Source: Opitutaceae bacterium TAV5 (GTDB lineage Bacteria > Verrucomicrobiota > Verrucomicrobiia > Opitutales > Opitutaceae). From it: DNA of 64,000 nucleotides. Where the stretch lies: positions 806,001 to 870,000 of the forward strand of contig CP007053.1 of the NCBI GenBank assembly GCA_000242935.3, given 5' to 3'. Made by a program: the position numbers and the translations under genes. The notes beneath the pieces are model-generated. The model saw only the letters and a list, made by a program, of their open reading frames with translations. It was not told the DNA's origin and searched no databases. The first letter of the stretch is position 1. Each line of letters opens with the position of its first letter. Positions 30,203 through 36,841 of this stretch are shown piece by piece.

Positions 30203-31207
30203 TCACTTCATCTTCCTGCGTTTCAGTTTCGCCTCAATGGACTTCAACTCGGCCTCGTCGGCTTGGTCGGCGGCGAGGGCTTCCTGTTTTTTGCGGCGGT
30301 CATCGAAATCGAGATAGAGCGCGGTGGTGGACGCTTCCATTTGCTCGTGGCTGACGTCGCCGTTGCCTTCGAGGAGCGGGAAGCCGTTGGAAGCGATGAT
30401 CTGGTCGATGTTTTCTTTCCAGAAGCTCATGCGCGTCTCCTTGCGGTTTTTGGCGCGGAGCTCGGCGGTTTCGAGGAAGATGACGACGAGGCGGTTGAGG
30501 GTGTCGATTTCGTCCTCCGTGAGGTAGTTTTTGGCGACGAGGATGTCGGTCTTTCGCACCTTGTCGCCCTTCCACGCGAGCAGGCCGAAATGGGGATCGT
30601 CGGGATTGGCCCGTGCGGTGACGAGTCCGGCGGCGGTCTTTTGGCTGACGGCAAAGAGCAGGGAGTTCTGGACGGTGGCGAAAAATTGCTGGGTGGCGCG
30701 GTCGGTCTTGTCGTAATCGGTGCTGAGAGCGAAGAGGTCGCGGACTTTTTGATAAAACCGTTTTTCTGAGGCGCGGATGTCGCGGATGCGCGCCAGCATC
30801 TCGTCGAAATGGTCCGGGCGGCCATCGGGGTTTTTGAGCCGCTCGTCATCCATGGCGAAGCCCTTGAGCAGGTATTCCTTGAGGACGGTGGAGGCCCAGC
30901 GCCGAAACTGAACGCCGCGCGGCGAACGCACCCGGTAGCCGACAGCGAGGATGGCATCGAGGTTGTAGAGGGTGACCGGGCGCCGCACCTCGCGGCCACC
31001 TTCGGTTTGAACTACCGAGGATTCCTCGATAGTTGCTTCGCGGCTCAGTTCTCCGTCCTCGTATATGTTCTTGAGGTGCAGGCTGATGTTGTCGGTGCTG
31101 ACATCAAAAAGCTGGGCCATTTCCCGTTGGGTGAGCCAGACGGTCTGGTCCTTGGCCCGGAGCTGGATGCGGCTCTGGCCATCTTCGGTGGTGTAAAGGA
31201 TCAGCAT
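30203..31207 (-). CDS. rhuM: RhuM family protein
   Basis: A 334-aa RhuM-family protein, a type often found inside type I restriction loci. The N-terminal part is HTH-like ([23 protein letters not shown]). [22 protein letters not shown] then matches the conserved RhuM core, and a helical Lys/Glu-rich C-terminus follows. Its molecular activity is not established. The ATG at 31207 lies 13 bases past the anticodon nuclease stop, so the two are co-transcribed. Upstream in-frame codons only read the other gene's DNA. Confidence 0.85.
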
Positions 31208-31220
31208 CGGCGAAGGCGGT

Positions 31221-32354
31221 TTAGGGTTGAGCTGCGGGGATTGGCGCGGCGGCGGGCGGGGGCGCTTCGTTGACCAGCGCGGGCAGGTCGAAGGCGTGTT
31301 TGTTGAGGAAGGCCGCGAGGATGTCGCGGAAGAGTTGTTTGTCGGCCTCCGACATCTCGACCGGCGCGTAGAGCGAATATTTTTCGTGGCTACGGAGATT
31401 GAGCGCGCGGGCATACAGGGCTTCGTCCTTCACGCCTTCGAGGCATTCTGAGAAATCCTTCTTGCCAAAAAAAACGGCGGTTTTTTCCATGATCCCACGC
31501 AGCATGTTGAAATGGTGGAAAAAGAGCGTGCCGGAGTGGGAATCAGCGGCCTTGCGCAGCTCGGCCAACATGGCGACGTGGTGGAAAAAAGGCGTGTCGT
31601 CGGTGGCGCGCAGGGTGTAGTCGCCGCTGCCGCCGGGGCGGTGCAGGAAGTAGCGTTTGCACTTCCCGGCCTTAAGCTCGTTGCAGACGACGTTGAAGAA
31701 CAGGGCGTGGTGCGAGGAAACAACTGTTTGCAGTCTTTTATGTCTCTTTTTGGCCTTCTGGAGTATCCTAGCGAGGTCGCTGGCGACTGCGATGGCGTTG
31801 TTGTCGTCGAGCGATGAAACGGGGTCGTCGATGTAGAGATACTCGACCCAAGCGTAGGACCAGTGACCGGCGATCACCCGTTCACAGATGGTCATGAAGA
31901 GACACCAAATGAATAGACGTTCTTCGCCGCGGGAAATTTTGATATGAGTGGCGCCCTGCTTACGAAAGGAGACTGTCCAGTTGGTAAATTCAAAGGTGAG
32001 ATCGGTGTAACGGCCGAGGTAAGACTGAATGTCTTTGTTTAAGTCCAACTCATCGAGGCCGCCGAAAAATTGAGAGTCTGAATTGAGTCTAAGGAAACGC
32101 TTGCTGTCCGTCGCGAGGTCATTTTCCCACGAAAACAGGTCCTCGGTGAAGGCGTTGAAATAAAGAGTATCGGGGGTGCCAGAGTTTTTGCGTTTGCCTG
32201 CGTCCTTGAACTCCATCGAGAGGCGGGTCTTGCCGGTGCCGTTGTAGGCGTAGAGGAGCACGAAGTCGTGGCCTCCGTTGACGAAGTCGTCGCGCAGCCG
32301 CGCGACCAAACGGTCGAGGGATGGGAATCGAATGATCTTGGGTTTGTCGCTCAT
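31221..32354 (-). CDS. PrrC/RloC-like anticodon nuclease (ABC-type ATPase)
   Basis: A 377-aa protein. The ATPase part shows a Walker A AYNGTGKT (36-43), an ABC-signature-like ISRGEERLF (140-148) and a Walker B LYIDDPVSSLD (173-183), as in PrrC-type ATPases. The C-terminal part has Arg286-x3-Glu290 and His323, matching in order and spacing the R-x3-E-x(~31)-H tRNA-cleaving triad of PrrC. Length is close to PrrC (about 396 aa). Such enzymes cut host tRNA anticodon loops when a linked type I restriction enzyme is blocked by a phage. Here no restriction enzyme remains, only hsdS relics. Its ATG overlaps the stop of one relic. Confidence 0.7.
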   Translation of the reverse strand: MSDKPKIIRFPSLDRLVARLRDDFVNGGHDFVLLYAYNGTGKTRLSMEFKDAGKRKNSGTPDTLYFNAFTEDLFSWENDLATDSKRFLRLNSDSQFFGGLDELDLNKDIQSYLGRYTDLTFEFTNWTVSFRKQGATHIKISRGEERLFIWCLFMTICERVIAGHWSYAWVEYLYIDDPVSSLDDNNAIAVASDLARILQKAKKRHKRLQTVVSSHHALFFNVVCNELKAGKCKRYFLHRPGGSGDYTLRATDDTPFFHHVAMLAELRKAADSHSGTLFFHHFNMLRGIMEKTAVFFGKKDFSECLEGVKDEALYARALNLRSHEKYSLYAPVEMSEADKQLFRDILAAFLNKHAFDLPALVNEAPPPAAAPIPAAQP

Positions 32355-32389
32355 GCCTCGGCCTCCGCTGGGGACGGGAAGAAATGCAG
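32351..32389 (-). pseudogene. Relic of a type I hsdS 3' end (copy 1)
   Basis: Reads LHFFPSPAEAEA-stop, the usual last residues of a type I specificity subunit. The TGA overlaps the anticodon nuclease ATG. It is about 75% identical in DNA to the same stretch at 36459-36495. No hsdS sequence continues upstream; the 42 bases before it lead to the helicase stop. Confidence 0.65.
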
Positions 32390-32431
32390 TATGCGCACCC
32401 GTGTCCGGAAATGGTGTCGAGACTTCATGTC

Positions 32432-35400
32432 TTATTCCGCTCCGTCGATGATTCGCCATGCCTTGCGATAGGCGCTGCCGGCAGTTCCCACGGCTGCGTT
32501 CCAATCTTGATCCGATAGCGCGGCGAGACGCTGGCGGATCGAGGGCAACGACTCGCCTGTGCGCATATTCAAATTTCGTGCGAGACTGGTGGCGGCTCGG
32601 CGCGGAACCCCGAGCAACCGCAGCGTGACCGCCTCGTCGGTGGCGACCCCATAGAACACCTGTGACGGGAGATTGGCCAAGCGGCTATGTGCTTCGTCCG
32701 AGAGTTCGGACCCGGTGATAGCCAGCAGGGCATTGAGCCCCCAAGACGAGGTTTGGGCGAGTTTACCGAAGAGGTTTTGACCGCATTTGGTCAGCGCGGT
32801 TATGCCATCTGTGTCTTCGTCGGCGAAATGACGCGCGGCTATAGTCGTGAGTTCTTCGCCGTTTACCCAATCTTTTAGAATGAGCGCGAGTTTGTCGCCA
32901 TCTGGAGCTCTACCGCCAAGAACAGCATTCAGATTCTGACGCAGCTCGGGAACTCGCAGCAGCACTCCCATCATATCCTGCAAGGTTCTGTCTCCATCGC
33001 GAAACAGGCGGTCACGGTCCCATGACGCCGGGCCGATATTGCCACGATTTGCCATGACCGTGCGGATGCTCTGAAGCGAAAATCCAGTGCTGTCCACGAG
33101 CTTGAGCGGTTGCCTTGGCCGAGTCATGTCGGTAATATAGGCTTCGATGCCGGTGAGAAGCTGACGAGCGACTTGACTATTTGATGCACGGAGCTTCTCG
33201 AATCCAAGCGTTCCACGAAGCACCTGTTCGATTTGATCCGCGAAATTAGCCGGCTCTCCCATCTGGCGGTAGGTGTGGACGAGATATTGGAGGAAGCTAG
33301 ACCATTCCGGGCGGGAGTAGACGATCCTGCCAAGGTCGGACATCAAGTTACCCGCCGCTTGCGCGAGAAGGATCAGCGCAGAATTCAAATCCCCCGTATT
33401 GCGACAAATAAACGCCTTTCTCTCAGCAGCCTCGGCCTCATCCTTGGCCACCAAGGCAACCACGCCAAGCTGGCCTTGAGATACGCGACCGGCACGGCCT
33501 GCAATATTCCAAAAATCCTCCGACGGCATGGGAACCGCATATCCGGTCGAAAGATAGTGTGTGGCCGCCATGACCACACCGCTGACTGGGAAATTTACGC
33601 CTTGGGCGATGGTGGTGGTGGCGGCTAAAACATCGAGCTGCCCTTTCTCGAAGAGCCACTCCATCAGCATGCGGATCTCTTCCGGCAAACCGCCGTGATG
33701 CACGCCGATGCGATGGGAGAGCAAATCGACCAAGGGAAACTGCGCGCCCATCTCCGCAGCCACGTATTCCTGAACAAACCGCACATCGTCCGACAATGTC
33801 TCGGCTTGTTCGGCTTTGATGTTTTCGGCGAGCTTCCAGACGAAGTCCGGCCGGCTGTGCATGGCGATGACCGGACCGCGCGCCATGAGCTTCCGCGCCG
33901 CCATGGCGGCCAAGGTGCCTACATCCCGCGCCTTGGAAAGCGTGGAAGCCAACGACTCCTCCTTCCCCAGCGAGAAGGCGTCATCAATCACGATGGTGTG
34001 GCGCGAGGTGTGAACCGACTCAAAATTCAGCCGGTAGTCACGACTGCGCCCATTTTTCGGGCCATTATCCACCGGGCTGACAATGCCGATGGCCCGGTCG
34101 TTGGGCTGCCAGTCCACGCCAAGACTGATGTCGTCGGAGTTCGGACCGCCGAGCCAACGGGCGACTTCGCGTGCGTTTTGAATAAACGGCGTGAGCAACA
34201 GGAACTGCGCCTCGCGGCATTCGCGGTTGATCGTGGCGAGCAGTAACTCCAGCCGCAGACCGCGCTCCTTGTCCTGAATGGTGTGGGCCTCGTCTACCAC
34301 GACCAAAGTCAGTGGGCGGCCGATCTTCTCCTCCCAGCCTTGCCGCAGCATCAGGTCGAATTTTTCGGGCGTGGCTACGAGGATGCGGAAACGTGCCTCG
34401 TCACGCGACTCGGTGAGCACGCCGGCTTCGACGCCATCGACTTCCATGGCTGGACTCACGCGCTCCACGACAAGACCGAGCGGGGAAAGATCGCGGCGCA
34501 GCTGACGTGTGACCTGATTCACCAGTGCGCGGCTGGGCGCGAGGTAGGCCACCCAGCCTTTCCTGTCTTCAAACTGGTTGAGCGCCTGAAGCATTCGGAA
34601 CTGGGCGATGAGGGTCTTACCGCTGGAAGTCGGCAAGCTCACGACCACCGCGCGACGACTGGAGCCGAGCAGACCGCGCTCAGCGAGGGTGCGGCGTTGC
34701 GGGGGCAAAACATCAAACAGAGCCCGGTCGCCGCGTCCCCGGCTCACCAGTTCGCGGACAAAGTCCGTCACCCGCGAATTCACCGCCCGGGTGACCGTCC
34801 AAATGGAATTCTCGACCATCTGCGCGGCAGCGCGGGCGAGCAGCCTTGTCATCGGTTCCAGTTCCACCAAGCGGGCGGTTTCGCACGCGGCGAGGGCACG
34901 ATCGAAATGCGAATCGAGCAGGAGCTGAACTTGATGGTTTCCGTCCACCACGCCGTCGGTGATGAAGTGCGCGAGCACGTCAGCAGCCTTTGCCAAGTGG
35001 TAGATAGCAATCAGTTCCAAGGCCGAGCGTTTGGCTGCGAGCGGTGTAAAGGTATGCAGGTAGTCTCGCTCAAAGTCCTGCTGCGCGGTGCGCAAAGCCG
35101 CCACGCGTTCCAAAACCATGTCGCGGTCGCTCCAGCCCTTTTTGCGCACGAGCCGCAGCCACGTGTCGGTCAGCGTGGCCCGGCAACGTTCGCCCCAGTT
35201 CTGCGAGTCGAGCGGCAGCGCCGGCCAAGCGCGCTCGGTTTCCAAGGCCCGCAGCCAGCGAGCGGCATCCGCGCCGCGATCACCGAGGACGGCGAGGGCA
35301 GAGGCGCGCAGCAGGTGCGCCCCAGCCTCCATCGGAACTTCGGGCACGGGGAGCACACGCAAGAGGCGGAAGGCATCGGCGGCGGCCCCGCATCCGAGGG

Positions 35401-35602
35401 CGCGGCGTTCGGGATCGTCGGCTAGGCGATTAATCTCCAAGTCGAGCACAGCGATTTCCAAGGCGGAGGCGAGTTCCCCAAGTATCTCTTGATCGAACTC
35501 CGGGACTTCCCGTGCCATCTCGCGGTAAAACTGGACGCGGTCGGCCTCGCGCAGCGCACGGGCCCGCTTGTTTGAAATCGCATCGAGTAGCCAGTGATTC
35601 AT
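32432..35602 (-). CDS. DEAH-box superfamily 2 helicase (HamB-like)
   Basis: A 1056-aa helicase: Walker A SLPTSSGKTL (322-331), DEAH in LVVVDEAHTIQ (433-443), HHGGLP (635-640), TIAQGVNFPVSG (664-675) and AGRAGR motif VI (701-706), a Ski2-like core. A helical ~300-residue N-terminal extension and ~350-residue C-terminal part flank it. Paired with the DUF1837-like nuclease by a 4-base ATGA overlap, it fits a Hachiman/AbpAB-type defence helicase. A perfect Shine-Dalgarno AAGGAGGT (35608-35615) stands 5 bases before the ATG. That is unlike most genes here and suggests foreign origin. Confidence 0.85.
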   Translation of the reverse strand: MNHWLLDAISNKRARALREADRVQFYREMAREVPEFDQEILGELASALEIAVLDLEINRLADDPERRALGCGAAADAFRLLRVLPVPEVPMEAGAHLLRASALAVLGDRGADAARWLRALETERAWPALPLDSQNWGERCRATLTDTWLRLVRKKGWSDRDMVLERVAALRTAQQDFERDYLHTFTPLAAKRSALELIAIYHLAKAADVLAHFITDGVVDGNHQVQLLLDSHFDRALAACETARLVELEPMTRLLARAAAQMVENSIWTVTRAVNSRVTDFVRELVSRGRGDRALFDVLPPQRRTLAERGLLGSSRRAVVVSLPTSSGKTLIAQFRMLQALNQFEDRKGWVAYLAPSRALVNQVTRQLRRDLSPLGLVVERVSPAMEVDGVEAGVLTESRDEARFRILVATPEKFDLMLRQGWEEKIGRPLTLVVVDEAHTIQDKERGLRLELLLATINRECREAQFLLLTPFIQNAREVARWLGGPNSDDISLGVDWQPNDRAIGIVSPVDNGPKNGRSRDYRLNFESVHTSRHTIVIDDAFSLGKEESLASTLSKARDVGTLAAMAARKLMARGPVIAMHSRPDFVWKLAENIKAEQAETLSDDVRFVQEYVAAEMGAQFPLVDLLSHRIGVHHGGLPEEIRMLMEWLFEKGQLDVLAATTTIAQGVNFPVSGVVMAATHYLSTGYAVPMPSEDFWNIAGRAGRVSQGQLGVVALVAKDEAEAAERKAFICRNTGDLNSALILLAQAAGNLMSDLGRIVYSRPEWSSFLQYLVHTYRQMGEPANFADQIEQVLRGTLGFEKLRASNSQVARQLLTGIEAYITDMTRPRQPLKLVDSTGFSLQSIRTVMANRGNIGPASWDRDRLFRDGDRTLQDMMGVLLRVPELRQNLNAVLGGRAPDGDKLALILKDWVNGEELTTIAARHFADEDTDGITALTKCGQNLFGKLAQTSSWGLNALLAITGSELSDEAHSRLANLPSQVFYGVATDEAVTLRLLGVPRRAATSLARNLNMRTGESLPSIRQRLAALSDQDWNAAVGTAGSAYRKAWRIIDGAE

Positions 35603-36393
35603 GCCGCACCTCCTTGCCGGATAAACTCAGGCAACCGGCTGATAGGCCACGGTAGATAAAGGGCGAGGAGACTGCAACGCGTCGGGTTTTGCAGCCGACC
35701 ACCCAGGCTGCGCCCGCGAGTCTGAAGGTCGGCCTCACGGGCCTCCTGGTCGCGCACGAGGATTCCAAAGAGCGCCAGATCGCGACGCCCGGAGTTGAAA
35801 TAGCGGGTGCAGGCTTGGTTGAATGTAACCTCGTGCGGGGTGCTTCTTACACGAGGCAAGAGCCATTTGAGGAGCTGACAGATGGTCCCGAGATTGTTGG
35901 CCAAGGTGTCGAGTTGGTGGCCCAATCCGCCGCTACGTCCGCTCATAACCTGCGGAGGCCACTGCGCCTCGGACGAGCATTTGACCTCTCCCAAGGCGAG
36001 ACGGTGGGAATCGCCGTCGCGTTGGAACCCCACAATGTCCGCGCCGGGCAGCGAGGCGAAGGGGTTGCGCTTGTCGCGCTCCGTGTTCCACGGCAGCACG
36101 ACGTCGTGTTGATCTTCCAGCACGGCTTCGGCGAGGGCTTCGCCTGCCGCCCAATCGCGCTCTTCCGGCACCTCGGCGGCGAGCACTTCCTCCAGCGCAT
36201 CCTGTCCCATACCGGTCAAGCTGAGTCCGCGGAGGTGGCTGCTTAATTCTTCGCTGCCTTCCGCATCATTGAGGCGGGCCGCCACCGGACCTGCCAAAAA
36301 TGCGCCTAGATCGTCTCCGTCCTGCGCATGCAAGCCATTGCACGACACGCAGCCATAAGAGGATTGATAGGCGATTTGGGACGGGAATGGCAT
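35599..36393 (-). CDS. DUF1837/HamA-like PD-(D/E)xK nuclease
   Basis: A 264-aa protein. Residues 80-93 (DWAAGEALAEAVLE) precede the nuclease core: Asp119 in PGADIVGF and GEVKCSSE with Glu136 and Lys138, the D...ExK pattern of PD-(D/E)xK enzymes and of the HamA/AbpA (DUF1837) family. Four cysteines are scattered (15, 18, 172, about 195); CVSCNG near the N-terminus could be half a zinc site. It partners the helicase: stop and next start share ATGA. Family membership is by motif and pairing only. Confidence 0.65.
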   Translation of the reverse strand: MPFPSQIAYQSSYGCVSCNGLHAQDGDDLGAFLAGPVAARLNDAEGSEELSSHLRGLSLTGMGQDALEEVLAAEVPEERDWAAGEALAEAVLEDQHDVVLPWNTERDKRNPFASLPGADIVGFQRDGDSHRLALGEVKCSSEAQWPPQVMSGRSGGLGHQLDTLANNLGTICQLLKWLLPRVRSTPHEVTFNQACTRYFNSGRRDLALFGILVRDQEAREADLQTRGRSLGGRLQNPTRCSLLALYLPWPISRLPEFIRQGGAA

Positions 36394-36458
36394 CGATTAA
36401 ACCAAAGGGGAATACTCTGAAGCAAGGTGCTCACAGGCAGCGATTCCGATTTTAGGCT

Positions 36459-36563
36459 TCATGCCACGGCCTCCAAGGGGGACGGAAAGAACTGTTGCAC
36501 GAGCCCTTTCTTGTGGGTCTGGAGGGCTTCGAGCTTGTTGCTTTGGGCAGCGATCAGGTCGGT
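36459..36563 (-). pseudogene. Relic of a type I hsdS 3' end (copy 2)
   Basis: Reads TDLIAAQSNKLEALQTHKKG then LVQQFFPSPLEAVA and a stop, the C-terminal helix and tail of a type I restriction specificity subunit. The in-frame sequence above residue 35 (to 36665) is unlike HsdS, so the gene is cut there. Its TGA overlaps an ATG that opens a 21-codon frame (36397-36462) beginning MKPKIG. The anticodon nuclease, which follows the other relic, begins MSDKPKI. Confidence 0.75.
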
Positions 36564-36841
36564 GGGAACGAAAAAATAAGTGGTGTGCATGAGAATTCCG
36601 ACCTTTTTGGCAGAAGTTACGCGTAAGAGAGGGTCATGAGGGAGAAGCAGATACGAGTGAGGCAACTTTAACGCAGGGGCTCAACCTTCAAGTTGTGGGT
36701 TCGGCTTGATGCAAAGGATGTTCCTCAACGACTGATTTTCGCCACGGGCATCAGTACGGGCCGGGATCGGTTCGTATGACCGGATTCCTCTCCGCCACGG
36801 TCTGAATCATCCCTGCGTTGGATTGAGGATGCTTCTGTCGC
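36564..36841. other. Gap between hsdS relic and HTH gene
   Basis: About 280 bases with no recognisable gene. One open frame continues the relic to 36665 but is not HsdS-like. No repeat or attachment site was identified. Confidence 0.4.

Follow-up and report, generated by a model that had tools for sequence, protein, structure and literature searches.

Bacterial operons commonly have short overlaps between neighboring genes, and Shine-Dalgarno sites at the ends of genes. Type I restriction loci with duplicated hsdS genes occur as well, the duplicates reportedly serving specificity switching. Defence modules between hsd genes are already known, as is the idea of a hotspot: PMC12255303 places DarTG2 between hsdS and hsdR in EPEC and describes the stretch from hsdS to hsdR as a potential hotspot of recombination for defence systems. 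According to PMC3874168, the anticodon nuclease gene prrC invariably accompanies a type Ic hsd locus, which keeps it silent. Translational coupling is described for the overlapping hsdM and hsdS of EcoKI (PMC3510504, partial text), and the D-E(X)K nuclease motif of HamA for Hachiman (PMC12278908, partial text).

The locus analyzed here lies in the window, the whole stretch of 64,000 nucleotides from Opitutaceae bacterium TAV5, and is encoded on its minus strand. Like the specificity-switching loci, it holds more than one hsdS piece, but these are C-terminal tails only and they stand before other genes. Like the type I operons in the accessible text of PMC12255303, it has add-on defence genes in an hsd context, but the hsd core is gone and gene-end pieces only are found between the add-ons. 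We consider it slightly better than an even bet that the locus is a remnant type I operon, in which a nuclease-helicase pair (M23) inserted at the hsdS-prrC junction and left that junction on both sides, and which lost its core.

prrC, rhuM and the absent restriction system

The prrC gene (31221-32354, minus strand) has a frame that is open throughout. The PADLOC PrrC match (8.3e-128) spans residues 5-357 of the 377 in the product, as expected of a full-length family member, and the alignment agrees. R286, E290 and H323 are invariant in the 12 aligned PrrCs, a set that has the E. coli PrrC outside it, and their spacing is close to that of what we take to be the catalytic Arg/Glu/His triad of the E. 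coli protein. The product found no match among PDB sequences. The neighboring rhuM gene (PDC-S05; 30203-31207, minus strand; PADLOC 6.9e-148) encodes a protein 80-85% identical to the RhuM of two Opitutaceae hsd loci (L158 and L161).

Searches across both contigs of the complete genome (7,417,673 bases in all) gave no match to HsdS, no complete HsdM (HsdM_N matched over 45 residues only) and no complete HsdR (the HSDR_N match was below the cut-off). N6_Mtase gave one 26-bit match, which falls within a 714-aa frame. A type I restriction-modification system, taken as the joint presence of hsdR, hsdM and hsdS, was thus not found in the genome, and what lies near prrC is not a type Ic hsd locus but hsdS tail relics only. 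With HsdS missing from these search results and neither HsdM nor HsdR complete, the prrC of the window is an orphan. It is a full-length member of its family with conserved core residues, in a genome without a complete type I system, and as such an exception to the invariable linkage stated in the accessible part of PMC3874168. The preliminary description had placed prrC under new control. This is not supported at the level of the translation start, where the second copy of the hsdS end keeps GGAGG and an overlapping start like other prrC genes; what prrC has lost is its restriction partner. From the genes that are left, the core of the restriction operon appears to have been lost and the add-on antiviral genes kept. 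The locus is a natural case of PrrC without a restriction partner, and this makes its silencing, or its remaining activity, directly testable.

Two HTH genes lie upstream of the operon, and a promoter and terminator scan of the upstream region found neither element. A stretch of 65-72 nt in the window (36630-36725), also upstream of the operon, is found again in L163 of the sister genome G289, and a further time in the TAV5 genome itself, beside another HTH gene (L164); it is perhaps an operator or a repeat. The probable same place in G289, the one other genome of the genus concerned, is L163 3779-6203, between an HTH gene and a gene that we take to be DUF3127-like. A divergent rhuM (44%) occupies two frames of this interval, from which matches to prrC and M23 are absent.

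The two copies of the hsdS end

That an hsdS end occurs twice on the minus strand, as first reported, was borne out by an ungapped local alignment. The two copies are identical at 30/36 nt with a score of 42, compared with control scores of at most 25 in sampled 300-nt minus-strand segments and at most 30 for 40 shuffled queries (both strands, whole window). Both copies encode FFPSPxEAxA, both contain GGAGG, and in both the TGA overlaps the next ATG (ATGA), in agreement with the preliminary description. The KPKI starts reported behind the copies were borne out as well: a methionine followed by KPKI within 0-3 residues occurs at 2 of the 1656 ATGs of the window, and these are exactly the frames behind copies 1 and 2.

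Copy 1 (36459-36561, minus strand) is assigned as a relic of the hsdS 3' end by the HsdS-tail profile, tblastn and DNA matches. It comprises 34 codons, running from DLIAAQ to FFPSPLEAVA and the stop, and its TGA (36461-36459) overlaps an ATG (36462-36460). Comparison with a profile of 75 HsdS C-termini drawn from PrrC loci, set beforehand as the result that could overturn the assignment, gave 55.8 bits (E 1.2e-14), and tblastn against full HsdS gave 66.7% over 33 aa. With the copy 1 region as query against 120 genomes of the family, an hsdS end was matched in seven (Opitutaceae). The assignment stands, and its extent had to be trimmed: because the best match in each of the seven genomes begins at window position 36561, the left edge of the relic is placed there and not at 36563. 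The relic forms the end of mini-ORF 1 (36459-36590, minus strand, 43 codons), in which, from sequence and translation, about 10 residues precede the HsdS tail; the codons between the ATG at 36590 and 36561 look foreign in origin. Behind copy 1 is a 21-codon ORF (36397-36462, minus strand) that begins MKPKI and has its stop 3 nt before the nuclease ATG. The five residues at its beginning look like those of a PrrC start. A strict KPK(I/V) start was found in only 15/90 PrrCs, however, and this makes it less convincing to read copy 1 as the start of a prrC.

Copy 2 (32351-32386, minus strand, about 11 codons, delimited by alignment to copy 1) is too short for the HsdS C-terminus profile. It lies at the end of mini-ORF 2 (32351-32428, minus strand, 25 codons), which carries GGAGG and whose TGA overlaps the prrC ATG. 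The copy 2 36-mer is identical at 29/36 positions to the hsdS/prrC junctions of L061 and L157, and copy 2 looks like the native start region of prrC. The nuclease and the helicase are both present between the copies as first described, yet they are not alone there, the interval also holding the 21-codon ORF (36462-36397) and the start of the 25-codon ORF (32428-32351). The repeat looks like a copied stop/start junction, which would allow the inserted antiviral pair to sit here without cutting off the gene behind.

The nuclease and helicase between the copies

The pair corresponds to the PADLOC candidate PDC-M23A/B. PDC-M23A (35599-36393, minus strand; PADLOC 1.3e-96) is a putative HamA-like nuclease with D119 and E136-x-K138, and PDC-M23B (32432-35602, minus strand) a putative HamB-like DEAH helicase, its start overlapping the nuclease stop (ATGA). 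The nuclease residues D119, E136 and K138 are invariant in five aligned sequences including that of the window, as in the D-E(X)K motif of HamA, and the best fold match of a low-confidence structure model is HamA 8vx9_A. Among PADLOC profiles, PDC-M23 matched the nuclease best and HamA1 only at E 0.0096; no Pfam family matched it, and the M23A profile gave one chance match only among PDB sequences. The helicase matched PDC-M23B (E 0) and HamB1 (3.7e-61) in PADLOC and HamB (1.5e-22) among PDB sequences, where eukaryotic Ski2-like helicases rank above; a HamB Ski2-like helicase is thus adjacent to the nuclease. These matches characterize the putative pair as Hachiman-like. It shares with Hachiman, as described in the accessible text of PMC12278908, a D-E(X)K nuclease motif and a Ski2-like helicase, HamA being also the best fold match of the low-confidence nuclease model, but differs in a nuclease that has no Pfam match and is closest in PADLOC to PDC-M23, not to HamA1.

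A relative of M23A was found in 6/288 genomes of the phylum, none was found in plasmids and none was confirmed in viral contigs; the literature searched contained no mention of PDC-M23 that we found. The view of the pair as an arriving cassette gained support from a sister cassette found in a second genome of the Opitutaceae (L007), where it is an independent unit with proteins 82% and 86% identical. DNA homology to L007 covers window positions 36398-32432, exactly the two genes and nothing further, and the profile found no HsdS tail beside the L007 cassette. Since the match is confined to the two genes, the hsdS pieces are probably a property of the host locus and not of the cassette. The limits of this homology, and the KPKI codons after copy 1, mildly favor hsdS-prrC as recipient and the M23 pair as intruder. 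A cassette bringing its own hsdS tail was also considered, and no short HsdS-tail frame was present in L007 to L010.

Two observations were made on relatives of the pair. Upstream of the sister cassette, L007 7303-8154 is a gene with a DUF1016 N-terminal domain only, perhaps a restriction-linked relic. Downstream of an hsdR-hsdS-prrC-hsdM operon, L140 (12843-16936) carries a helicase relative (49%) whose partner is a KwaB-like protein and not the HamA-like nuclease.

Gene order in relatives and the recurrence of duplicated gene ends

For the comparison set of PrrC loci, a scan of genome contigs contributed the best 80 of 538 relatives, and the set therefore leans to PrrCs close to that of the window. 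In 84/90 loci the end of an HsdS tail lies at the start of prrC, as counted with a tail profile itself built from 75 of those 90, and 61 have the 4-nt overlap; the 90 starts exclude contig-edge loci and include one identical pair (L050, L134). The tail is absent at the prrC start in the other six (L076, L095, L105, L106, L111, L122). HsdS and PrrC are adjacent in 89 cases and separated by an insert in two (111 loci, a few counted twice). Plasmid records have the order hsdR-hsdS-prrC-hsdM, with one further plasmid stretch without hsdR. The hsdS-prrC junction that the preliminary description had taken as ancestral is thus the usual unit elsewhere. Five or more nucleotides ahead of prrC match the Shine-Dalgarno sequence in 51/90 cases, compared with 49/1440 control windows; in operons of this type, the end of a gene often contains the ribosome-binding site for its successor.

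Duplicated hsdS ends that flank or precede other inserts were found in four other loci overall (L104, L105, L134, L162). In L104 the copy (137 nt, 96%) lies before rhuM and an HsdS-tail ORF has its own ATG. In L105 it is 31 nt long (87%), after a 300-nt repeat-rich insert and before prrC, and about 8 HsdS codons are left with GGAGG kept. The L134 copy (56 nt, 78.6%) precedes a DUF1016 gene; there the prrC frame crosses the tail out of phase with HsdS, and again GGAGG is kept. Three hsdS tails are present in L162, with a PD-(D/E)XK gene between two of them, and the locus also has repeats and a second hsdM-like start. L104, L105, L162 and L095 come from draft or metagenome assemblies, and short HsdS-tail frames at contig ends (L091, L099, L128) were left out of the counts. 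GGAGG is kept in 8/9 isolated tails examined, the one without being L095. This last locus (782-codon hsdR frame, DUF1016-like piece, FPEEIVG before prrC) is perhaps a further case; it was not counted because the tail is very short and lacks GGAGG and its score comes partly from the shared prrC start.

An earlier test of hsdS ends covered 104 ends from 110 loci, duplicates included (L012-L019 lie inside L039-L045; L050 equals L134). The gene-end test took distinct ends from 111 loci, identical ends removed, and called a copy within 6 kb downstream at E below 1e-5. A downstream copy was present for 3/99 hsdS ends (L104, L105, L134), 3/99 hsdR ends (L040, L066, L122), 0/94 prrC ends and 0/103 hsdM ends. 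In each of the three hsdR cases, hsdR is followed by a gene of 280-294 codons (DinD in L066 and L122) and then by an hsdR stub, which continues into the start of hsdS. As hsdR ends show the same rate, duplication is not special to hsdS. Of the inserts longer than 300 nt that lie between neighboring genes, 4/31 come with a stub of the gene upstream: 3/13 between hsdR and hsdS (L122 by the gene-end test only), 1/2 between hsdS and prrC, 0/7 between prrC and hsdM (two being one locus) and 0/9 elsewhere. Junction duplication is one route and no rule, since most inserts lack a duplicated junction.

The remnant-operon reading that we prefer would run as follows. The stretch would be what remains of a type I restriction operon with hsdS-prrC-rhuM, its other hsd genes supplied by analogy with relatives. 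Because neighbors in such an operon share a few bases, and the end of hsdS presumably also contains the start of prrC and its ribosome-binding site, an insert that damages neither gene has to end up with a copy of the junction at each flank. The Hachiman-like pair would have inserted at this junction, copy 1 ending hsdS and beginning a short ORF that leads into the nuclease gene, and copy 2 preserving the start region of prrC. Loss of hsdR, hsdM and most of hsdS would have spared the add-on defence genes together with the short pieces of junction, the latter probably because they carry ribosome-binding sites. We infer the order of events, the coupled translation and the selection on start regions that would keep the copies. 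The duplicated piece is best read as the shared stop/start junction that both neighbors need, because L134 and L105 kept the start region and not the HsdS frame. The proposal that the junction had been duplicated or used as a landing site fared unevenly. Duplicated ends do recur, but a single recent duplication is unsupported, the copies being about as close to each other (30/36) as copy 2 is to unrelated junctions (29/36), which leaves a single insertion event unproven; site-specific insertion at a fixed site is unlikely, as repeat lengths of 31, 56 and 137 nt differ.

The divergence of the copies at 6/36 nt, about as far as copy 2 stands from the junctions of other taxa, would also suit two tandem hsd operons (hsdS-M23AB and hsdS-prrC-rhuM) that both lost their hsdS bodies, the tails being separate scars. 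The second tail of L134 points the same way, being no close copy of the resident hsdS end and preceding the DUF1016 gene as if the module had brought it from another locus, and M23AB does occur between hsdS and hsdR in L008 and L010. However, in L008 hsdS and the cassette have a further gene between them, in L010 hsdS is 6.5 kb off, and no HsdS was found near the cassette in L007 and L009, so that hsdS directly precedes M23A in none of these relatives; moreover, the KPKI codons behind copy 1 resemble the starts of some prrC genes. We regard tandem operons as rather unlikely.

The hsdS 3' ends could instead be true landing sites, homologous exchange between conserved tails importing modules and leaving a tail on each side. 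The tails are conserved across taxa, and the modules behind hsdS or prrC are varied: in Opitutaceae, hsdS is followed by prrC (L157), a Y1 transposase gene and rhuM (L158), DUF1016 (L159), a small gene and a PIN toxin gene (L160), or rhuM and a pair similar by eye (L161). The hotspot that the preliminary description generalized from hsdS 3' ends was a fair suggestion, though one already in print for the hsdS-hsdR site in the accessible part of PMC12255303. The equal rate at hsdR ends and repeat lengths varying from 31 to 137 nt do not mark hsdS sequence as a special site, and we hold this explanation to be doubtful, more so than tandem operons. A function for the peptides of the mini-ORFs, such as that of a truncated HsdS binding and silencing PrrC, is very improbable despite the open 43-codon frame at copy 1 and the separate ATG of the L104 tail ORF, given that the prrC frame of L134 crosses its tail in another frame and L105 is down to a few HsdS codons, GGAGG being kept in both.

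As a wider and more tentative idea, which on balance we think may well not hold, gene-end stubs could be a general scar of insertion into overlapping operons. Viable insertions would carry or create a second junction copy, which would outlive the host operon as a ribosome-binding linker, and the prrC of the window might be restrained by a new partner, or be lost or latent. Such a readable scar would tell some inserted defence modules from native genes and let their stacking order be inferred. Among the literature matches listed (mostly phase-variable hsdS and strain genomes, with subscription journals and preprints largely outside), no title on gene-end stubs beside defence modules was found.

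Further observations concern the neighborhoods of these genes. A RhuM scan, used for orientation only, gave 28 loci with varied hsd orders, and a DUF1016 scan of viral contigs gave a Rheinheimera record only. The repeat-rich insert between hsdS and prrC in L105 (613-924, 300 nt) is open over 103 codons and joins both overlapping junctions. A REP-associated tyrosine transposase gene (L095 2911-3441) and a Y1 transposase gene (L158 5108-5845) lie beside or behind hsd genes, and the repeats of these transposase genes could drive module exchange.
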